From contig CAIWHR010000624.1 of assembly GCA_903912485.1 (NCBI GenBank), forward strand, positions 1 through 45,113: a stretch of 45,113 nt of DNA, written 5' to 3'. Position numbers and translations under genes: made by a program. Shown piece by piece: positions 35,458 through 45,113 of the stretch (positions within the stretch are counted from its first letter, which is position 1; the number at the start of each line of letters is the position of its first letter). Source of the stretch: an uncultured beta proteobacterium (GTDB lineage Bacteria; Pseudomonadota; Gammaproteobacteria; Burkholderiales; Casimicrobiaceae). The notes below the pieces were generated by a model, which made no database searches, had not been told where the DNA came from, and worked only from the letters and a program-made list of their open reading frames with translations.

Positions 35458-36084
35458 TCAGCCGGGCGCCGCGCCGTCGCGGCGCACCGCGGCCAGCAGC
35501 AGGACCGCGGCCAGCATCCCCGGATCGTCGTACCCCACCGACCGGGCGCCATACATGCGGGCGCGGCCCAGGCGGGATTCGCGGCCGCGAAATTCGTCGA
35601 GCGCGGCGGCGGCCGCGGCGGCCGCGGCGTCGAGCAGGTTCGCGGAGGCGTCGTCCGCGGCGAGGTCGCTCTCGACGCGCAGCAGCGAATCGAGAATGCT
35701 CTTGTCTCCCGGCGTTGCACCCGAACGCTCGGTGATCACCGCGGCGGCGGCATTGAGCAGGGCGACGACTTCGCTGCCGGCGAGCGCCTCCTTGCCGCGC
35801 GCGCTGCGGCCGGCTGCCGACAGGCCCATCGAAAGCACCGCGGCGAGACTTGAGCCGCTGGCCCGCCCCGTCTCGCGGCCCAGCGCCAGCAGCGCGGCGC
35901 CGACGTCGGGCGGCAGGCTCGGGCAGGCCGCCGCCCAGGCCGCGACGACCTGCGCGACGGTCATCCCGGTGTCGCCGTCCCCGAGCAGCCGGTCGGCGGC
36001 GTTGAGCTCCTCGGCGATCGCGGCGATGCCGGCGTGGATGCCGGCGATCGCGCGCGCGATCGCGGCGGTGGTGAGCATCGTCAC
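35458..36084 (-). CDS. dhaL: Dihydroxyacetone kinase subunit L-like (nucleotide-binding) protein
   Basis: DhaL-fold protein of 208 residues that binds ADP/ATP and works with the DhaK-type subunit. The Mg/nucleotide motif is present as LNAADRLLGDGDTGMT (three Asp), followed by GRASGSSLAAVLSMG and GATPGDKSILDSLL, which match the GGASGxL and GDKTMLDAL segments. The start is GTG 36084, overlapping the DhaK stop as GTGA (36084-36081); ATG 36078 is a near alternative. No DhaM phosphotransferase gene is present, so it is either an ATP-using pair or relies on a DhaM elsewhere. In other bacteria such pairs phosphorylate ketotetroses as well as dihydroxyacetone. Confidence 0.87.
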   Translation of the reverse strand: MTMLTTAAIARAIAGIHAGIAAIAEELNAADRLLGDGDTGMTVAQVVAAWAAACPSLPPDVGAALLALGRETGRASGSSLAAVLSMGLSAAGRSARGKEALAGSEVVALLNAAAAVITERSGATPGDKSILDSLLRVESDLAADDASANLLDAAAAAAAAALDEFRGRESRLGRARMYGARSVGYDDPGMLAAVLLLAAVRRDGAAPG

Positions 36085-37076
36085 CGCGGCCAGAACGGGC
36101 AGCCGGTCGGCGCCGCCAGCAGGTCCTCGATCTCTGCGTCCAGATCCAGCAGCGAGATCGAGCAGCCCGCCATCTCCATCGACGTCGCGTAGTGACCGAC
36201 ATAGCGGCGTGCAATGCCGATCCCCGCGGCGTCGAGCAGCCGGGCGGTCTTGCGATAGACGATCAGCAGTTCCTCGAGCGGCGTCGCGCCGAAACTGTTG
36301 ACCAGGACGGCGACCCGCTGCGGCCGGGCCGCACCGTCGTCGGCCAGGAGGCGCTCCACCATCGTCGTCGTCACCACGTCGGCAGTGGGCAGCGCCTGCT
36401 GCTCGATCCCGGGCTCGCCGTGTATGCCCATGCCGATCTCGACCATGCCCTCCGGAACGGTGAACCCCGGTGCACTCGCGCCGGGAATCATGCATGGCGA
36501 AAGCGCGACGCCGAGGGTGCGGGTCCGCCCGGCCGCGCGCGTCGCGAGTTCGGCCACGGTCGCCAGCGGCGCGCCGCGCGCGGCGCTGGCGCCGGCCACC
36601 TTGAACGCGAACACCATTCCCGCAACGCCGCGCCTCTTCTGCCGCTCGGCGGGCAGCGCGCTGGCGACATCGTCGGCAACGATGACGGTCTTGGTCGTGC
36701 CGCCTTCGTCCCCGAACTCCTCGCAGGCCTGCGCAAAGCTCATCCGGTCGCCGCCATAGTTGCCGAGCACGCAGACGACCCCCGCGCCGCCGTCGGCCGC
36801 GCGGATGGCCTCGGCGCAGATGTCCGCCGGGGGGCCCGCAAAGACGTTTCCAACGGCGCACGCATCCAGCATGCCGTCGCCGACATATCCCGCGAACACG
36901 GGCAGGTGGCCGAAACCGCCGCCGGTGACGACGCCGACGTTGCCCGCCACCGCTCCGGACGCGCGGGCAATGACGCGGCCTCCGCGACCGGTCCTCCGGT
37001 AGCCCGAAAACGCCGCGCACAATCCGTCCAGCGACTCGTCGACGTAGTCCGCCGGCTGATTCATGAGCTTCTTCAA
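36081..37076 (-). CDS. dhaK: Dihydroxyacetone kinase subunit K-like (substrate-binding) protein, TTG start
   Basis: DhaK-fold protein of 331 residues that binds the keto-substrate covalently as a hemiaminal on a His. That residue is His219 (GMGIHGEPG, E. coli His218), and the other active-site residues align as His57 (GGGFGH) and Asp110 (NYGGD). The usual GHEP appears as GHLP. I place the start at TTG 37076, which restores the family N-terminus MKKLMN and has GAGGAA six bases upstream; ATG 37064 would lose four conserved residues. It is coupled to dhaL by GTGA. Substrate could be dihydroxyacetone or another small ketose; nothing nearby decides this. Confidence 0.87.
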   Translation of the reverse strand: MKKLMNQPADYVDESLDGLCAAFSGYRRTGRGGRVIARASGAVAGNVGVVTGGGFGHLPVFAGYVGDGMLDACAVGNVFAGPPADICAEAIRAADGGAGVVCVLGNYGGDRMSFAQACEEFGDEGGTTKTVIVADDVASALPAERQKRRGVAGMVFAFKVAGASAARGAPLATVAELATRAAGRTRTLGVALSPCMIPGASAPGFTVPEGMVEIGMGIHGEPGIEQQALPTADVVTTTMVERLLADDGAARPQRVAVLVNSFGATPLEELLIVYRKTARLLDAAGIGIARRYVGHYATSMEMAGCSISLLDLDAEIEDLLAAPTGCPFWPR

Positions 37077-37366
37077 GGCGTTCCTCGCTCGTTTGGACCG
37101 CAAGACATCGTGGAATTCCGGGCACGCAGCTGCGGAATCGGCGCGTCGACGGCGGAATCCGTCGTTCGGCTCCCCGCCTGCCGGAACCTCGGACGGCCCC
37201 AAGGATGCCCTCGCGACCGAGGCCGAGTCAACCCGAGCCCCGCGACAGGCGGCGGCGCGCCGGGCGGCTGCGCCGGACCGAAAAGCCATAAGATGTGCGA
37301 TTCGTCGTCGGGACGGTCAACCGGGAGTCCCGACGTGATCGCCATAATCGTTGCAAGGAGACGTGC
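37077..37366. other. Divergent intergenic region, no gene recognised
   Basis: Spacer between dhaK and the DUF2889 gene. It is GC-rich apart from a short AT-richer patch at about 37281-37300 containing CATAAGATGTG; a similar ATAAGATGT occurs at 25137-25145 before the GntR gene. I see no ORF with a ribosome site and no convincing promoter. Confidence 0.4.
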
Positions 37367-37936
37367 GTGCCGCTCCCACCCTCGGTCGACCGCGAAGAGG
37401 TCCATCAGCGCCGCATCGAACTGCGCGGCTATCGGCGGCGGGATGGCGTGTTCGAGATCGAGGCACACCTCGTCGACACGAAGCCATTCCCGTTCCAGCG
37501 CCCGCTGCAGGAGGAGGAAACGCCGCCGGACACTCCCCTGCACGACCTGTGGGTTCGTCTCGTCGTCGATGAAGGCCTGGTCGTGCGCGACGTAGTGGTC
37601 GCCGCGGACACGATGCCGTTCGCGGTCTGCCTCGAGGCAACCGACACTCTGAAGACGATGATAGGCGAACGCATCGGGCACGGCTGGAGCAGGGCCGTCC
37701 GCGAACGGCTGGGCGGAAGCGCAAGCTGCACGCACCTCGCCGAGCTCCTCGGTCCGCTCGCCACGCTCGCATTCCAGTCCCTCGTTCTCGTGCGCCGCGC
37801 AAGACCCGAGGCGCTCGACGCGAGCGGGAAGCCGCAGCGCATCGACAGCTGCTACGCGTACGGAAGCGGACGCGACGTCGTGCGGCGGCTCTGGCCGCAG
37901 CATTACACCGGCCGGACCACGCCGGAATCTTCCTGA
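37367..37936 (+). CDS. DUF2889 domain protein
   Basis: A 189-residue protein of the DUF2889 family, recognised from the N-terminal pattern REEVHQRRIELRGYRRRDG and FEIEAHLVDTKPF, and the downstream segment ATDTLKTMIGERIGHGWSR. Members are single-domain cytoplasmic proteins often encoded beside CoA-dependent catabolic genes in proteobacteria, but no activity is established. The GTG start 37367 has AAGGAG (37355-37360) six bases upstream, a strong ribosome site. It precedes the B12-mutase operon by 205 bases and is in the same orientation, separated by a likely promoter, so it may be co-regulated rather than co-transcribed with it. Confidence 0.82.
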   Translation: MPLPPSVDREEVHQRRIELRGYRRRDGVFEIEAHLVDTKPFPFQRPLQEEETPPDTPLHDLWVRLVVDEGLVVRDVVVAADTMPFAVCLEATDTLKTMIGERIGHGWSRAVRERLGGSASCTHLAELLGPLATLAFQSLVLVRRARPEALDASGKPQRIDSCYAYGSGRDVVRRLWPQHYTGRTTPESS

Positions 37937-38141: not shown

Positions 38142-39812
38142 ATGCATCAAGGCAAGCTCGAACTGACGCCCGACGAATGGCGCGCGCGGCACCGCGAAGA
38201 GATTGAACGCGCCGAGGGCTCGGCCGCCCAATGCGAGGACGGCCTGCCGCTGAAGCTCGTCTACACGCCGGCCGACGTGAGCCCGGCGGCGGCAGACATC
38301 GGTTTCCCCGGCGAGTTTCCGTATACGCGGGGCACCGAGGCGAGCGGGTACCGGAGCAAGCTCTGGACCATCAGCCACTACGCGGGGTTCGGCAGTCCGC
38401 GCGAGACGAACACGCTGTTCCGCAAGATGATCGATCACGGCGGCGTGCCGCCGTACATGGCGCTCGACCTGCCCACGCAGCTCGGTCTCGATCCCGACGA
38501 CCCGATGGCGGTGGGCGAGGTCGGGATGACGGGAACGTCGGTCACCTCGCTCGCCGACTGGGAAACGATCTTCGCGGACATCCGGCTCCAGGACACCTTC
38601 GTCGGCACCGTGATCAACGCGCCGGCGGCGGTGTTTCTCGCGATGCACGTGGTGCTCGCCGAGAAACAGGGCGCCGACCTGTCGCGCATCCGCGGCAACC
38701 TGCAGAACGACATCCTGAAGGAGTTCACCGCCCGCGGGAACTTCATCTTTCCGGTCGAGCCGTCGCTGCGGCTCGTCACCGACACGCTCGAGTATTGCGC
38801 GCAGCACCTGCCGTCGTACTGGCCGCTCAACGTCTGCGGCGGCCATTTCGCCGAGGCGGGAAGCAACCGTGTGCACGAGGTCGCGTTCGCCTTCGCCGAC
38901 GCGTTCACCTACGTCGAGCAGGCGCTCCAGCGCGGCGTCCCCATCGACCGCTTCGGGAAGGGAATCTTCTTCCTGATGAAGACCAACCACACCGACCTGA
39001 TCGAGGAGGTCGCCAAGTTCCGCGCGATGCGCAGGATCTGGTCGAAGCGCCTCGCCGAGCGCTACGGCGCGCAGGAGCCGGAGACGATGAAGTGCCGGAT
39101 TCTCGGCCACAGCGGCGGGTCGCTGATGACGCGCGAGCGGCCCGAGCTCAACATCGCCCGGACGACGATGGCCTGCCTCGCGGGCGTGCTGGGCGGCATC
39201 CAGCTCATCGGCCTGCGCACGATGGACGAGGTGTTCGGGATCCCGACGGAGAAATCGGAACTGATCGCGATCGGCACCCAGCACGTCGTCGCGCACGAGA
39301 CCGGACTGCCCGACGTCGTCGATCCGCTCGGCGGCTCCTACTACGTCGAGGCGTTGACGACCGAATTCGAGCAGCGCGTGCTGGAGGAGATCGAGCGCAT
39401 CGACGCGATGGGCGGCATGGTCAAGGCGATCGAGTCGGGCTACGTCCGCAAGACGATCGCGCAGGACGCCTACCTGACGCACCAGGCGTCGGAAAGCGGC
39501 CGCAAGGTGAAGGTCGGAGTCAACAAGTACCGCATCGACGAGGACGAGCCGCCGCGGCGCCCGTACGCGTACAAGCCGGAAGAGGAGTGCCGGCACGTGG
39601 AGGCGGTGCGCCGGCTGCGGCGCGAGCGCGACAACGACGCGGTGGCCGCGGCGCTTGCACGGCTGCGCGAGACCGCGAGCCGGCCCGCCGGCACCGCCAA
39701 CAACCTCGTGCCGCCGATCATCGACGCCGTGCGCGCGTACGCGACGATCGGCGAAATCTGCGGCGCGCCCCGCGAAATCTTCGGCGAGTACGCCGAGACG
39801 ACCCATTTCTGA
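38142..39812 (+). CDS. B12-dependent acyl-CoA mutase, large (catalytic) subunit, divergent
   Basis: Methylmalonyl-CoA mutase-superfamily TIM-barrel subunit of 556 residues, the size of the large subunits of two-gene enzymes (IcmA, HcmA, about 560). Conserved landmarks include LWTISHYAGFG (74-84), NLQNDILKEF (186-195), MGGMVKAI and VGVNKYR. Alignment without gaps to Propionibacterium MCM gives Tyr80 for Tyr89 and Arg198 for Arg207, the pair that marks carboxylated substrates (isobutyryl-CoA and hydroxyisobutyryl-CoA mutases have Phe or Ile, and Gln). But Tyr243 beside catalytic His244 is Gly234 here (CGGH), the PTMY loop reads EASGY, Arg87 is Ser78 and QSLHTN is QLIGLRT. The reaction type is secure; the substrate is probably none of the standard ones. 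GGGGGAAA precedes ATG 38142. Confidence 0.88.
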   Translation: MHQGKLELTPDEWRARHREEIERAEGSAAQCEDGLPLKLVYTPADVSPAAADIGFPGEFPYTRGTEASGYRSKLWTISHYAGFGSPRETNTLFRKMIDHGGVPPYMALDLPTQLGLDPDDPMAVGEVGMTGTSVTSLADWETIFADIRLQDTFVGTVINAPAAVFLAMHVVLAEKQGADLSRIRGNLQNDILKEFTARGNFIFPVEPSLRLVTDTLEYCAQHLPSYWPLNVCGGHFAEAGSNRVHEVAFAFADAFTYVEQALQRGVPIDRFGKGIFFLMKTNHTDLIEEVAKFRAMRRIWSKRLAERYGAQEPETMKCRILGHSGGSLMTRERPELNIARTTMACLAGVLGGIQLIGLRTMDEVFGIPTEKSELIAIGTQHVVAHETGLPDVVDPLGGSYYVEALTTEFEQRVLEEIERIDAMGGMVKAIESGYVRKTIAQDAYLTHQASESGRKVKVGVNKYRIDEDEPPRRPYAYKPEEECRHVEAVRRLRRERDNDAVAAALARLRETASRPAGTANNLVPPIIDAVRAYATIGEICGAPREIFGEYAETTHF

Positions 39813-39819
39813 GGCGACG

Positions 39820-40236
39820 ATGACTGAACGGCAGCGACCGATCCGGGTGCTGATGGGAAAGCCCGGGCTCTGCGGCCACGACCGCGGCATCGTCCTCGTC
39901 GTGATGGCGCTCCGCGACGCGGGGATGGAAGTGATCTACTCCGGCCGCCACAACTCGCCGGAAACGCTGGTCGAGGTCGCGGTGCAGGAGGACGTCGACG
40001 TCCTCGGCGTCTCCGTCCTCTCGGGCGCGCACATGGGCCTGTGCCGGCGGATCGCCGACGGTCTGCGGGAGCGAAACGCGTCCGACATCCTTCTCCTGGC
40101 CGGCGGATTCATCCCGCCCGAGGACATTCCGGCAATGAAGCAGTTCGGCGTGCACGAGGTGTTCCGCGACGGCGCGCGACTCGACGACATCGTGGCGTTC
40201 ATCCGCAGTGCGGTGCAGGCGCGGGCGGCAGCATGA
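39820..40236 (+). CDS. B12-binding small subunit of the acyl-CoA mutase, with Cys for Asp in DxHxxG
   Basis: Cobalamin-binding Rossmann-like domain of 138 residues, separate partner of the large mutase subunit seven bases upstream. The family motif KxGxDGHDRG, in which His coordinates cobalt and Asp and Lys complete the ligand triad (His610, Asp608, Lys604 in Propionibacterium MCM), reads KPGLCGHDRG: Lys14 and His20 are kept, but Asp is Cys18 (codon tgc at 39871-39873). The downstream B12-tail segments VLGVSVLSGAHM and LLLAGGFIPPED are normal. The rest of the protein is intact, so this is not decay. The stop overlaps the ligase start (ATGA at 40233-40236). Confidence 0.9.
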   Translation: MTERQRPIRVLMGKPGLCGHDRGIVLVVMALRDAGMEVIYSGRHNSPETLVEVAVQEDVDVLGVSVLSGAHMGLCRRIADGLRERNASDILLLAGGFIPPEDIPAMKQFGVHEVFRDGARLDDIVAFIRSAVQARAAA

Positions 40237-41762
40237 ACATCGCGCAGTGGGTGGTCGCGAACGCGGCGCGCCGGCCCGACAAGCCGGCGATCGTCTATGA
40301 AGGCCGGCAAATCACGCACGCCGGGCTGTGGGAGCAGGTCCAGCGCTGCGGCAACGCGTTTGCCCGGCTGGGCGTGAAGCCGAGCGACCGGGTCTCGCTG
40401 TTCCTGCCGAACTGCCCCGAGTGGTTGATCGCGCGCTGGGGCGCGCTGGCGATCGGCGCGGCCTCGTCGCCGATGAACGTGATGTTCCAGAAGAGCGAGA
40501 TCCGCTACGTCCTCAACAACGCCGCGCCGCGCGTGCTGGTCACGACCGCGGACAAGCTCGAGATCGTCGAAGAGCTGTGGAACGAATGCCCCGGCCTCGA
40601 GCACGTCGTCGTCGTCGGCGGGCAGGCGGTGTTCGGGACGCACGACTTCGACGCGCTGCTCGCCGACGCGCCGGCGGAGCTCGCGCTGCACGACTGCGCG
40701 CCGGACGCGATGTGCGATCTCTACTACACGTCGGGCACGACGGGGCGTCCCAAGGGCGTGATGTGCTCGCATTCGAACTTCGCGAGCCTCCTGTCCTACG
40801 AGACGATCGTCTGGCAGGCGAGCGAGGACGACCGCTCGCTGGTGGCGCTGCCGCTGTTCCACGCCAAGGGCCTCATCATCCCCAGCCTGATCGCGACCTA
40901 CGTCGGGGCGACGCAGTGGCTGCTGCCGCGCTGGGACACCGGGCGCGTGCTGCGCCTCATCCAGGACGAGAAGATCACCTTCTTCGCCGGCGTCCCGACG
41001 ATGTACACGTACCTCCTCGCGGACCCGCTGATCGAGCAGCTCGACCTGTCGTCGCTGCGGCTCGCGCGCGTCGGCGGCGCGCCGATTCCGGTCGAGGTGC
41101 ACCTGGAATTCGAGCGGCGCGCCCGCGTCAAGCTGATCGAGGGCTACGGCTGCACCGGCTGGACCGGCACCTCGCATCCGCTGGTGGGCGACCGCGTGGT
41201 CGGATCGATCGGCAAGGCGATGGGGCAGTACGACGCGCGGATCGACACGGAGGTCAGGATCGTCGACGCCGACGACAACGACGTGCCGACCAACGAGGAC
41301 GGCGAACTCGTCATTCGCGGCGGGCAGATTCCCAAGGGCTTCTGGCGCATGCCGGCCAAGACGCGGCACGACTATCGCGGCGGCTGGTTCCACACCGGCG
41401 ACATCGCCCGCCGCGACGAGGCGGGGTTCATCTTCCTCGTCGGCCGCAAGGACGACCTCATCATCACCGCGGGCTTCAACGTCTACCCGCGCGAGATCGA
41501 GGAGGTCCTCTACCAGCACCAGGCCGTCCTCGAAGCGGCGGTGATGGGCGTCGACGACCCGGCCAAGGGCCAGCTCATCAAGGCCTTCGTCGTGGTCAAG
41601 GAGGGCGCTCAGGCCACCGAGCAGGAGCTGATCGAGTTCTGCCGCGCGCGCATCGCGCACTACAAGGCTCCCCGCGCCGTGCAGTTCGTCGGGTCGTTGC
41701 CGAAGACCGGATCGGGCAAGATCCAGAAGAGGCTGCTGGTGACGCCGGCGAAGGCCGGCTGA
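40233..41762 (+). CDS. AMP-forming acyl-CoA synthetase (class I adenylate-forming)
   Basis: Activates a carboxylic acid to its CoA thioester through an acyl-adenylate; 509 residues. Core motifs: YYTSGTTGRPKGVM (about 164-177, P-loop), GYGCTGWTG (A5 motif), the Asp of WFHTGDIA that binds ribose, GRKDDLIITAGFNVYPREIE (hinge) and the C-terminal Lys in PKTGSGKIQKR. The A5 motif GYGCTGW differs from the usual GYGMTE, so the acyl pocket may be unusual. ATG 40233 overlaps the stop of the B12 subunit, tying ligase synthesis to the mutase, as in the 2-hydroxyisobutyrate system where ligase and mutase genes are also adjacent. It most likely makes the mutase substrate or its precursor. Confidence 0.92.
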   Translation: MNIAQWVVANAARRPDKPAIVYEGRQITHAGLWEQVQRCGNAFARLGVKPSDRVSLFLPNCPEWLIARWGALAIGAASSPMNVMFQKSEIRYVLNNAAPRVLVTTADKLEIVEELWNECPGLEHVVVVGGQAVFGTHDFDALLADAPAELALHDCAPDAMCDLYYTSGTTGRPKGVMCSHSNFASLLSYETIVWQASEDDRSLVALPLFHAKGLIIPSLIATYVGATQWLLPRWDTGRVLRLIQDEKITFFAGVPTMYTYLLADPLIEQLDLSSLRLARVGGAPIPVEVHLEFERRARVKLIEGYGCTGWTGTSHPLVGDRVVGSIGKAMGQYDARIDTEVRIVDADDNDVPTNEDGELVIRGGQIPKGFWRMPAKTRHDYRGGWFHTGDIARRDEAGFIFLVGRKDDLIITAGFNVYPREIEEVLYQHQAVLEAAVMGVDDPAKGQLIKAFVVVKEGAQATEQELIEFCRARIAHYKAPRAVQFVGSLPKTGSGKIQKRLLVTPAKAG

Positions 41763-41778: not shown

Positions 41779-42939
41779 ATGTACGGCAGGAATCCCGCGG
41801 CTTTTCTTTCGGCCGAGCACGAGGCGCTGCGCGAGAGCGTCGCGCGGCTGGCGCGAGAGCGCATCGCGCCGCGCGCGGCCGAGGTCGACGCGAAGGCCGA
41901 GTACCCGCACGACGTGTTCGCGGCGCTGAAGGAGCACGGCATCATCGGGATGACGATACCCTCGCGCCTCGGCGGGTCGGACGCGTCGCTGTTCGAGCTC
42001 TGCCTCGCGATCGAGGAGCTCGCCAAGGTGTGCACGACCGCCGCGCTGATGCCGGTCATGACCAACATCGTCGGCCAGATGCTGCTCGCCGGAGGCACGC
42101 CCGAGCAGCAGGAGCGCTACCTGAAGCCTCTGGCCCAGGGCGAAATCCGCTTCTCCAACGCGGTGACCGAGCCGGAAGCGGGCTCCGACGCGTCGGCGAT
42201 GACCACGCGCGCCGAGGCGCGCGGCGACCGCTACGTCATCAACGGCAGCAAGTGCTTCATCACCGGCGCCGGTCTGTCGGATTTCTACATCGTGTTCGCC
42301 AAAGTCGCGATGGACGGCGAGCGCCGCGGCATCACCGCGTTCATCGTGCCGCGGGAGACGCCGGGAGTGGCGACCGGCCGCATCGAGAAGAAGATGGGCA
42401 TCCGCGGGATGCCGACCGGCGAGCTCTTCTTCACCGACTGCGAGGTGCCCGCCGGCGCGATGCTCGGCGCCGTCGGGGGAGGGCTGAAGCTGATGCTGGC
42501 GTCGATGACGCGCAACCGCCCCGCGATCGGCGCCCGCGGCGTCGGCCTCGCGCAGGGCGCTTTCGACGTCGCGCTCGACTACTGCAAGAACCGCAGGGCG
42601 TTCGGCGGCACGCTGTTCGACCTCCAGGCCGTCCAGTTCAAGCTCGCCGACATGGCGATGGAGATCGAGGCGGCGCGAGCGCTCGTGCACCGCGGCGCGA
42701 CGGTGCTCGACCAGGGGCACGACCCGCGCGGGCTGATCGGGCTGCTCTCCAGCGGCAAGTGCTTCGCGACCGACGTCGCGATGCGCGTCTCGACGGAAGC
42801 GGTGCAACTGCTCGGAGGCTACGGCTATTCCGCCGATTTCCCGGTCGAGCGCCTGATGCGCGACGCCAAGCACCTGCAGATCGTCGACGGCAGCAACGAG
42901 ATCCAGCGCGTGCTGATCGCGCGCGCGCTGGCCGACTGA
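41779..42939 (+). CDS. Acyl-CoA dehydrogenase with Asp at the catalytic-base position
   Basis: FAD-dependent acyl-CoA dehydrogenase of 386 residues with all three domains: N-terminal helical, beta domain (RFSNAVTEPEAGSDASAM, GSKCFITGA) and C-terminal helical (KNRRAFGGTLFDLQAVQFKL, LLGGYGYSADFPVERLMRDA). In most short- and medium-chain members the base is Glu in YEGTxxIQ; here the aligned sequence is IVDGSNEIQ, placing Asp370 there. Some ring-acting acyl-CoA dehydrogenases also use Asp, and others carry the Glu elsewhere, so activity is expected but the substrate may be branched or cyclic. GAGGAGG lies eight bases before ATG 41779, 16 bases after the ligase gene. Electrons would go to ETF. Confidence 0.9.
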   Translation: MYGRNPAAFLSAEHEALRESVARLARERIAPRAAEVDAKAEYPHDVFAALKEHGIIGMTIPSRLGGSDASLFELCLAIEELAKVCTTAALMPVMTNIVGQMLLAGGTPEQQERYLKPLAQGEIRFSNAVTEPEAGSDASAMTTRAEARGDRYVINGSKCFITGAGLSDFYIVFAKVAMDGERRGITAFIVPRETPGVATGRIEKKMGIRGMPTGELFFTDCEVPAGAMLGAVGGGLKLMLASMTRNRPAIGARGVGLAQGAFDVALDYCKNRRAFGGTLFDLQAVQFKLADMAMEIEAARALVHRGATVLDQGHDPRGLIGLLSSGKCFATDVAMRVSTEAVQLLGGYGYSADFPVERLMRDAKHLQIVDGSNEIQRVLIARALAD

Positions 42940-42950
42940 GGAGAACCCCC

Positions 42951-44336
42951 GTGACCGCGACCATCGCCCGGCGTCTGGCGCACTTCACCCACACGCTGGA
43001 GTACGAGGCGATCCCGCCGCCCGTCATCGAGAAGGCCAGGCACCTCGTCCTCGACACCGTCGGCGTGTGCATCGGCTCGACGCAGCTCGACTTCGGCCGC
43101 TCGGCGATCGCGCTGGCCACCGGCTGGGGCGGGCCGCCGCAGGCGTCCATCATCGGCGCCGGCGGCCTCGTCGCGGCGCAGAACGCGGCGCTCGCCAACG
43201 GGATTCTCGGTCACGGGCAGGACTACGACGACACGCATACCGAATCGGTCGTGCACCCCAGCGCCGCCATGGTGCCGGCCGCGCTCGCCGAGGCCGAGCG
43301 CAGCGGAAGCTCGGGCCGCGCGATGCTCGCGGCGCTGGTCGCCGGGACCGAGGCGACGATCCGCCTGGCGATGCCGGCTCTCAACCGCTTCCACCTGCGC
43401 GGCTTCCACACGACGTCGATCGCGGCGACGTTCGGCTCGGCGCTGATGAGCGCGCGGCTGCGCGGCATGAGCGAGGAAGAGGCCAATCAGGCGGTCGGCG
43501 TCGGCGGCAGCTTCACCTCGGGCCTGCTCGAATGCGTGCCCGCGGCGTCCGGCGCCAAGCGGCTCCACGCCGGCTGGGCGGCGCTCTGCGGCTTCGTCGC
43601 GGCGGACTTCGCGCAACGCGGCTTCACCGGGCCGGCGACCGTGTTCGAGGGCAAGCTCGGCGTCTACAACTCGTTCCTGCGCGACGAGAAGCTCGACCTC
43701 GCGGTGATCTTCGACCGCATCGGCGAGCGCTGGGAGATCCTCGATACGCGCCCGAAGCTCTACCCGTGCTGCCATTACCTGCAGTCGTTTCTCGACTGCG
43801 CTGCGAAGCTGCGGCGCGAGCACGCCATCCGGACCGACGACATCGCGAAGATCGAGTGCCGGATCGCCGCCGGCGCCGTCAACATGGTGTGCGATCCCTG
43901 GCCGCGCAAGATCGATCCGCGCACCGGCTACGACGCGCGGTTCAGCCTGCCCTTTGCGGTGGCGCTGATGTTCGCGCGGGGCCGGGCCGGCACGGCCGAG
44001 TTCTCGGAGGCGACGCTCCCCGATCCGGTGATCCGCTCGCTGATGCCGAAGGTGTCGTTCGAAGTCGAGCCGCGCTACGAGGTCAAGGACATGCCCGGCT
44101 GGGTGCGCGTGACGCTGGCGAACGGCGCCCAGCACACGGCGGAGAATCCGGCGGTGCGCGGCAACGCCGCCAACCCGATCCCGCTCGACGACCTGCTCGA
44201 CAAGTATTACGCCAATACCGGGTTCCTCGGGCGCGCGGCCAGCGAGCGGATCGCCGGGCAGATTCTCGCTCTCGACGAGAGCGACGGTGTCGGCGACCTG
44301 ATGGCCGCTCTGCGCGCCGTGCCGGCGGCGGCCTGA
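42951..44336 (+). CDS. MmgE/PrpD family protein
   Basis: A 461-residue member of the MmgE/PrpD family, which includes 2-methylcitrate dehydratase (PrpD) and cis-aconitate decarboxylase. Two domains are visible: the helical domain (about 1-265) with LDTVGVCIGS, LANGILGHGQDYDDTH and RGFHTTSIAATFGSA, and the lid-like C-terminal domain (about 270-405) with KLYPCCHYLQSFLD. The HGxDYDDTH segment is part of the proposed active site. GAGGAGA precedes GTG 42951, 11 bases after the dehydrogenase stop. In this operon it could hydrate/dehydrate or decarboxylate a branched di- or tricarboxylic acid; no methylcitrate synthase or prpB neighbour is present, so a standard propionate pathway is not indicated. 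Confidence 0.9.
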   Translation: MTATIARRLAHFTHTLEYEAIPPPVIEKARHLVLDTVGVCIGSTQLDFGRSAIALATGWGGPPQASIIGAGGLVAAQNAALANGILGHGQDYDDTHTESVVHPSAAMVPAALAEAERSGSSGRAMLAALVAGTEATIRLAMPALNRFHLRGFHTTSIAATFGSALMSARLRGMSEEEANQAVGVGGSFTSGLLECVPAASGAKRLHAGWAALCGFVAADFAQRGFTGPATVFEGKLGVYNSFLRDEKLDLAVIFDRIGERWEILDTRPKLYPCCHYLQSFLDCAAKLRREHAIRTDDIAKIECRIAAGAVNMVCDPWPRKIDPRTGYDARFSLPFAVALMFARGRAGTAEFSEATLPDPVIRSLMPKVSFEVEPRYEVKDMPGWVRVTLANGAQHTAENPAVRGNAANPIPLDDLLDKYYANTGFLGRAASERIAGQILALDESDGVGDLMAALRAVPAAA

Positions 44337-44414: not shown

Positions 44415-45113
44415 ATGGCGGCCGGACCCATGGATGATCCTGTCGCCGGCGCGCGCGCAGCCGCCGCGCGACTGGTCGCCGGCGCAGGCCGGGGCGACCG
44501 CCGCGCCATCGGCCGCGCGATCTCGGAGGTGGAGAACGCGACCGCCGCCGGGGGGGAGATCGTGCGCCTCATCCGGCCGCTGGTCGGCCGTGCGCAGGTG
44601 ATCGGCATCACCGGGCCGCCGGGGGCGGGCAAGTCGACGCTGGTCGCGGCGCTGATCGGCGAACTGTGCTCCCGCGGCAGGACCGTCGGCGTCGTCGCCG
44701 TCGATCCTTCGAGCCCGCTGTCGGGCGGCGCCGTCCTGGGCGACCGCGTGCGGATGGATCGGCACTCGACCGCGGCCGGCGTGTTCATCCGCTCGCTCGC
44801 CGCGCGCGGACATCCGGGCGGATTGTCGCGGACCACGGGCCGCGTCGTCGAGGTTCTCGACGCAGCCGGCTTCGACGCGATCATCGTCGAGACCGTCGGC
44901 GCGGGGCAGTCGGAAGTCGAGATCACCGACGTCGCGGACACGCGCGTCGTCGTCTGCCCGCCGGGCCTGGGCGACGACATCCAGGCGATCAAGGCGGGCA
45001 TCCTCGAGATCGCCGACATCTTCGTCGTGAGCAAGGCCGACCTGCCGCTGGCCGACAAGACCGAGCGCGATCTCCTGTTCATGGTCGACCTGCGGCTCGG
45101 CGCAGCGACGCCG
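44415..45113 (+). CDS. meaB: MeaB/ArgK-type G3E GTPase chaperone of the B12 mutase, 3' end outside the window
   Basis: GTPase that loads or protects the B12 cofactor of acyl-CoA mutases. The visible 233 codons run open to the window edge. Motifs: P-loop GITGPPGAGKST (about 63-74), VDPSSPLSGGAVLGDRVRM (switch region), ETVGAGQSE (Walker B/switch) and the start of the base-recognition loop SKADLPLADK. The first ATG (44415) follows GGGGGAA; ATG 44430 is in frame five codons later. About 100 residues of the C-terminal dimerisation part should lie beyond base 45113. Its presence in the operon, as with MeaH beside hydroxyisobutyryl-CoA mutase, supports a functional mutase despite the altered B12 motif. 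Confidence 0.92.
   Translation, partial: MAAGPMDDPVAGARAAAARLVAGAGRGDRRAIGRAISEVENATAAGGEIVRLIRPLVGRAQVIGITGPPGAGKSTLVAALIGELCSRGRTVGVVAVDPSSPLSGGAVLGDRVRMDRHSTAAGVFIRSLAARGHPGGLSRTTGRVVEVLDAAGFDAIIVETVGAGQSEVEITDVADTRVVVCPPGLGDDIQAIKAGILEIADIFVVSKADLPLADKTERDLLFMVDLRLGAATP

Follow-up and report, generated by a model that had tools for sequence, protein, structure and literature searches.

Whether a radical B12 mutase can dispense with the aspartate beneath its cobalt, and what an enzyme that has done so has become, is the question raised by the small subunit of a predicted two-subunit acyl-CoA mutase, in which a cysteine stands in place of this aspartate. The weight of the Asp-His relay under the cobalt in B12 catalysis is controversially discussed, as the excerpt of PMC6013808 puts it, and enzymes with a conserved natural Asp-to-Cys exchange, together with relatives of about 50% identity that have Asp, offer a natural experiment on this relay. 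The clade described here may possibly bring a new acyl-CoA rearrangement as well. The window, by which we mean the whole stretch of DNA that was analysed (45,113 nucleotides), contains the following features, described by their putative functions:

38142..39812, + strand: large (barrel) mutase subunit, 556 aa (PF01642, model, clade-specific active-site substitutions)
39820..40236, + strand: B12-binding small subunit of a two-subunit acyl-CoA mutase, 138 aa (translation, TIGR00640, PF02310, model)
39859..39888, + strand: KPGLCGHDRG motif with Lys14, Cys18 (tgc, 39871-39873) and His20
40233..41762, + strand: AMP-forming acyl-CoA ligase (PF00501, PF13193), overlapping the end of the small-subunit gene
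41779..42939, + strand: acyl-CoA dehydrogenase (Pfam), with VDG where most have YEG
42951..44336, + strand: MmgE/PrpD-family protein (PF03972, PF19305), GTG start chosen by us
44415..45113, + strand: MeaB, GTPase chaperone of B12 mutases (PF03308; TIGR00750 above cut-off), 3' incomplete

Occurrence of the cysteine in the B12-binding subunit

The 138-residue translation of the open reading frame at 39820-40236 (+ strand) contains MGKPGLCGHDRG. A reading of this DNA from its letters alone (hereafter the sequence-only reading) had described a KPGLCGHDRG motif with Lys14, Cys18 and His20, in which Cys takes the place of Asp, and translation and alignment bear this out. In the printed alignment with chain 5req_A of the methylmalonyl-CoA mutase (MCM) of P. 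shermanii, K14, C18 and H20 lie, by counting, opposite chain residues 603, 607 and 609, which we take to be Lys604, Asp608 and His610 of the literature numbering. Alignment to solved mutases thus places Cys18 at the Asp position of the DxHxxG motif, two residues N-terminal of His20.

Family models recognize the subunit in spite of this exchange: it exceeds the curated thresholds of both TIGR00640 (129.2 bits vs 57.45) and PF02310 (69 bits). The motif reads CxHxxG rather than DxHxxG in all five members of the clade to which the subunit belongs, with His and Gly retained. Across all 39 small subunits of our alignment, K14, G16, H20, D21, G23, S65, H71, D89, G95 and G96 are invariant, among others, and L67 is conserved in at least 90% of the rows, so that the SxL and GG features, which we take to be those expected C-terminal of DxHxxG in this B12-domain family, are present. 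The cofactor-free structure prediction (pLDDT 93.5) superimposes on the small subunit of 2-hydroxyisobutyryl-CoA mutase (HCM, 4r3u_C) with a TM-score of 0.91 and 0.9 Å. The retention of Lys14, His20, Ser65 and Gly95-Gly96, together with the resemblance of the model to the HCM subunit, makes base-off/His-on binding of cobalamin via His20 likely. Residues fixed in the five Cys subunits and rare in the 34 Asp ones include M12, G13, I24, L26, M29, R43, N45 and F97.

To find further cases, we scanned genomes for the DNA pattern K-x-G-[codon with middle T]-C-G-H-D-R/S. The pattern was found in 3 of 64 family genomes, in 1 of 369 genomes of the class (the window's own) and in 3 of 399 of the order; over the union of the scans, 816 genomes (G000-G815), this amounts to five, in agreement with the earlier statement that replacement of this Asp is rare. 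Among the 64 family genomes, 21 had the Asp version of the pattern, at 33 sites in all. The five Cys-positive genomes are G000, G028 and G077 of family f1 (two genera) and G483 and G526 of family f6 (one genus); all Cys matches fall in one clade, which thus spans five assemblies from three genera, two families and one order. The four other Cys subunits share 72-81% identity with the small subunit of the window.

In the 39-row alignment (A1), position 18 is Cys in 5/5 clade members and Asp in 34/34 other subunits, the latter comprising 7 loci of the same order and 27 from the genome-contig scan, which gave at least 80 loci, 50-60% identical among the matches listed, with no further clade member among those. 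A tblastn search had B12-domain matches in 113 of the 115 first loci, with D in 109 and C in three (the window twice, G028 once), and one match that did not cover the site. Searching a phylum sample with the large subunit at E 1e-145 returned 1 of 299 genomes, the window's own, and of the plasmid records 414 matched the large subunit at E 1e-60, every one with less than 60% identity. In the mostly open-access literature that we consulted, no Cys was reported at the Asp site of DxHxxG.

The codon of Cys18 is TGC in four of the five genomes and TGT in one. Pairwise dN/dS lies between 0.04 and 0.26 in the small subunit and between 0.08 and 0.37 in the large one; these values, rough figures from the simple Nei-Gojobori method with dS up to 1.7, indicate that the subunits of the clade are under purifying selection. 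Since the Cys is present in five genomes of three genera and appears to be under such selection, it is not a sequencing error; the agreement of five assemblies and dN/dS well below 1 rule out a single-strain error likewise. The sequence-only reading had named a correction of tgc to gac, or Asp in all close homologues, as observations that would overturn it; neither holds, as five genomes share the Cys.

The large subunit, its relatives and its ancestry

The large subunit matches PF01642 over the whole domain (residues 32-548, 550.2 bits vs a cut-off of 22.1). Its cofactor-free model has a pLDDT of 88.5, with low values in part of the remodelled loops (block means of 70 at 321-330 and 63 at 361-370), and aligns to the large HCM subunit (4r3u_A) with 39% identity in the Foldseek alignment, a TM-score of 0.87 and an rmsd of 9.4 Å; the low loop values and this rmsd count against our preferred reading.

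For a first comparison we used 32 other large subunits (30 loci from the small-subunit search, HCM and human MCM). The five clade members share another residue at 58 columns whose conservation in these rows is 80% or more. The changed columns are concentrated at the barrel strands, that is at eight strands picked from the model plus three residues after each, with 24 columns changed and 18 kept there vs 34 changed and 120 kept in the rest of the chain (Fisher p 3.6e-5, the background being all columns that are conserved among the other rows and invariant within the clade; the rows are related and p is only a guide). At 234 conserved columns, the clade members deviate in 38-40%, human MCM in 26% and HCM in 19%, against a median of 5% for the other rows; that the two characterized enzymes deviate too was counted against our preferred reading.

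Tyr80, Arg198, His235, Asp362 and Glu363 are retained in 5/5 clade members. By alignment, we take four of these (Tyr80, Arg198, His235, Glu363) to be Tyr89, Arg207, His244 and Glu370 of MCM, residues to which we ascribe substrate roles. The retained Tyr80/Arg198 pair hints at a carboxylate-bearing substrate, and Glu370 of MCM interacts with the adenosyl group, according to the excerpt of PMC4413051. Among 48 rows, Ser78, Tyr105, Gly155 and Gly234 are confined to the Cys clade, and Leu108 occurs in one other row as well. Positions 321, 323, 357 and 359, however, proved to be altered in several Asp-bearing lineages also, once divergent rows of the same order had been added, and their changes are therefore not by themselves linked to the Cys. 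A simple coupling of the Cys to the loss of the QTxG and HTN loops is weakened by the same Asp-bearing lineages, which are without these loops too. Judged from the alignments, the large subunit is nonetheless strongly remodelled and its active site rebuilt, which the sequence-only reading had not noticed.

In a 47-row maximum-likelihood tree, the large subunits of the Cys clade form one branch (support 100/100). A further branch with 100/100 support puts L130 and L139, which have a GLRTMDE loop, and the long-branched L140 on the side of the Cys clade; as the tree is midpoint-rooted, these are sides and no proven clades, and the placement of the long L140 row is unsure. The mutases with this loop (L130 in G483; L139/L143 in G713) are the nearest relatives: their large subunits are 49-50% identical to that of the window and share the GLRTMDE loop with the Cys clade, whereas they have Arg, Ser, Phe and Tyr at 78, 105, 108 and 234, Asp in DxHxxG, and an AMP ligase that adjoins the small subunit but shares only some 30% identity with the ligase of the window. 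The small subunits of L130, L140 and G713 (L143) all carry Asp. Since the nearest relatives with the same loop retain Asp, a single Asp-to-Cys change on the stem of the Cys clade, later than its split from the GLRTMDE relatives, is the probable origin of the Cys. Within the clade, the rows closest to the window are the two of family f6 and not those of its own family (98/92), and this grouping would fit a transfer between families.

The top PDB match of both subunits, in sequence and in fold, is HCM (4r3u), which is likewise built from separate large and small subunits. HCM keeps the Asp of DxHxxG, however, and carries Ile, Asp and Gln at the sites occupied in the window by Tyr80, Ala107 and Arg198; we take Ile90 and Asp117 to be the substrate signature of HCM. 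We rejected membership in this group, as Tyr80 and Ala107 are found in 5/5 clade members and HCM groups with L142 (100/100), separately from the Cys clade. Human MCM has the same Tyr, Arg, His and Glu as the window at positions 80, 198, 235 and 363, but its Ser, Phe, Tyr, His, Gln and Asn correspond to Tyr105, Leu108, Gly234, Leu321, His323 and Arg359 of the window, and its Asp to Cys18. The large subunit matches MCM with 330 bits vs 432 for HCM. As human MCM groups with L127 (100/100), apart from the Cys clade, membership in MCM was rejected also. NF006944, a model of MCM as a fused chain and hence one on which split subunits are at a disadvantage, gave 423 bits for the large and 91 bits for the small subunit vs a cut-off of 876.

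The suggestion that the Cys might mark a new mutase class thus holds to the extent that it does mark a separate clade and is conserved in the nearest homologues. From the alignments, the Cys is conserved, rare among the genomes searched and embedded in a coherent subclass whose active site has been rebuilt. The Cys18 mutase pair is probably a new subclass of radical B12 mutases.

Neighbouring genes and the proposed role of Cys18

The sequence-only reading had also seen an operon with a functional-looking ligase, dehydrogenase and MeaB. Pfam supports all three, yet MeaB is not complete: its gene runs off the end of contig C624, which the window covers completely. The best NCBIfam matches of the ligase (40233-41762) are below their cut-offs. 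The genes for the two mutase subunits (mutL, mutS), the PrpD-like protein and MeaB are found in 5/5 clade loci; in all four relatives of the window, counterparts of the PrpD-family gene (54-65% identity) and of MeaB (58-75%) lie near the mutase pair, separated in G077 by a predicted major-facilitator transporter. Counterparts of the ligase (61-63% identity) and of the dehydrogenase (63%) follow the mutase pair in two of the four, G028 and G077; none was found in the 20 kb stretches around the mutase of G483 and G526, which counts against our preferred reading, as does the small size of the clade, with five members from a single order. L123 (10457-13303) and L124 (2844-5723) have two tandem MmgE/PrpD-like genes after the mutase pair, of which only the second closely resembles that of the window (64-65% identity). 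In the window, the DNA upstream of the mutase genes encodes a DUF2889 protein on the same strand (37295-37936) and, on the opposite strand, genes with Dak1 and Dak2 domains of the dihydroxyacetone-kinase type (35458-37289).

The clade dehydrogenases have VDG in place of YEG in 3/3 cases (the window, L121 and L122). In the excerpt of PMC8360864, loss of the Tyr in this motif is suggested to ease the uptake of α-substituted or bulky substrates, and cyclohexanecarboxyl-CoA enzymes are listed with GDG. The same excerpt describes benzylmalonyl-CoA mutase IaaGH of indoleacetate breakdown, two gene letters that we take as two subunits, whose operon follows a similar logic of ligase, mutase and dehydrogenase. 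The indoleacetate (iaa) pathway is not favoured, as its dehydrogenase IaaF has GGG (PMC8360864, excerpt) where the window, L121 and L122 have VDG. Nor is a pivalyl-CoA mutase coupled to an isovaleryl-CoA dehydrogenase, considered because of the set of ligase, mutase and dehydrogenase, since isovaleryl-CoA dehydrogenases carry GAG in that excerpt.

We consider it fairly probable that the pair is a working AdoCbl-dependent acyl-CoA mutase of a new subclass, with a Lys14-Cys18-His20-Co relay, a rebuilt barrel and a different substrate. This reading is built on sequence, conservation, clade, predicted fold and gene neighbourhood, from which we infer that B12 is bound, that the enzyme is active, that Cys and His are joined by a hydrogen bond with a redox effect, and which class of substrate is used. 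His20 would ligate the cobalt of a base-off/His-on cobalamin, and Cys18 would stand in for the Asp whose hydrogen bond engages the distal nitrogen of the ligating His, completing the relay. A cysteine could receive this bond less strongly as a thiol and more strongly as a thiolate. Being softer and, as a thiol, a weaker acceptor than Asp, Cys18 would leave the imidazole more neutral, and both the potential of the cobalt and the lability of its bond to carbon are expected to change; by general chemistry, the conserved Lys14 could favour its thiolate. The large subunit, which retains MCM-like catalytic residues and is altered near the barrel strands, would probably act on a different acyl-CoA, carboxylate-bearing or bulky, as the changes at conserved positions near these strands suggest. 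Where both genes are present, the neighbouring ligase may make this substrate and the dehydrogenase receive the product.

The hydrogen bond from Asp to the Co-ligating His, which the sequence-only reading had presupposed, agrees with a related protein, CobDH, for which the excerpt of PMC3727330 gives a distance of 2.7 Å. According to the excerpt of PMC6013808, Co(III) is stabilised and the Co(III)/Co(I) peak displaced by 180 mV when the imidazole of a model compound becomes an imidazolate, and replacement of the His or Asp of the network in MetH leads to a dramatic loss of activity, so that the Cys might also impair the enzyme. Redox tuning and thiol-based protection of the cofactor, both raised by the sequence-only reading, are hypothetical roles of the Cys. 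A bolder extension of the preferred reading, in which a Cys18 thiolate held by Lys14 would set or reversibly switch the Co-His bond while the rebuilt barrel performs a new rearrangement, seems to us improbable as a whole.

Several other accounts have to be weighed against these. The exchange could have been tolerated in an ordinary AdoCbl mutase, the hydrogen bond on the lower face being minor and the Cys having drifted in once and stayed; the disputed importance of the Asp-His network (PMC6013808, excerpt) speaks for this, as does the fact that the GLRTMDE-loop relatives work with Asp, but the Cys is fixed in five genomes despite a synonymous change in its codon, and Asp in 34/34 other subunits suggests a site that is normally constrained, which makes mere tolerance rather unlikely. 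Should the protein have left 1,2-mutase chemistry for another B12 reaction, the Cys and the rebuilt barrel would be adaptations to it, and the loss of invariant or near-invariant residues of the first comparison set (His to Leu321, Gln to His323, Asn to Arg359, Tyr to Gly234) could be understood; against the retention of Tyr80, Arg198, His235 and Glu363, the presence of MeaB nearby in 5/5 loci and the occurrence of part of these losses in Asp-bearing lineages, we find such a departure distinctly unlikely.

The chances of a redox switch, in which oxidation or modification of Cys18, perhaps together with Cys75, would detune or release the His-Co bond, are slim: Cys75 is fixed in 5/5 clade members and lies one helical turn past the invariant His71 (model helix 71-84), but it is also present in 5/34 Asp-type subunits. 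Least credible, to the point of being negligible, is a decaying pseudoenzyme or sequencing error, which would account for the missing key motif residue but is at odds with five concordant assemblies, dN/dS well below 1, open reading frames and the maintenance of the neighbouring genes.

Further mutases in the same and related genomes

The window's own genome (96% complete, in 644 contigs) contains two further matches to the small subunit, in frames of 772 and 1386 residues, so that no second stand-alone small subunit that could serve this large subunit was matched there. The B12-domain match of L001 in this genome has Asp, and that of L004 begins one residue past the site. PF02310 also matches frames of 370 and 313 residues on contigs C160 and C370.

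The Asp-type mutases L130 (8610-11593 in G483) and L143 (7007-11047 in G713), two-subunit enzymes with a GLRTMDE loop and an adjoining AMP ligase, possibly represent another subclass, as far as their sequences tell; near L130 there are genes for a UbiD-family decarboxylase and an enoyl-CoA-hydratase-like protein. A different mutase lineage with Asp in the B12 motif comprises L135, L136, L137, L138 and L141 from families f1 and f10, in which GGGG-type and ALC(S/C)YDE loops replace QTAGxxL and HTNSxDE. L131 (5597-7578 in G526) is a mutase on a long branch; its loops read VVCGGSSL and FTAAFDE, and an Asp-type B12 subunit adjoins it.
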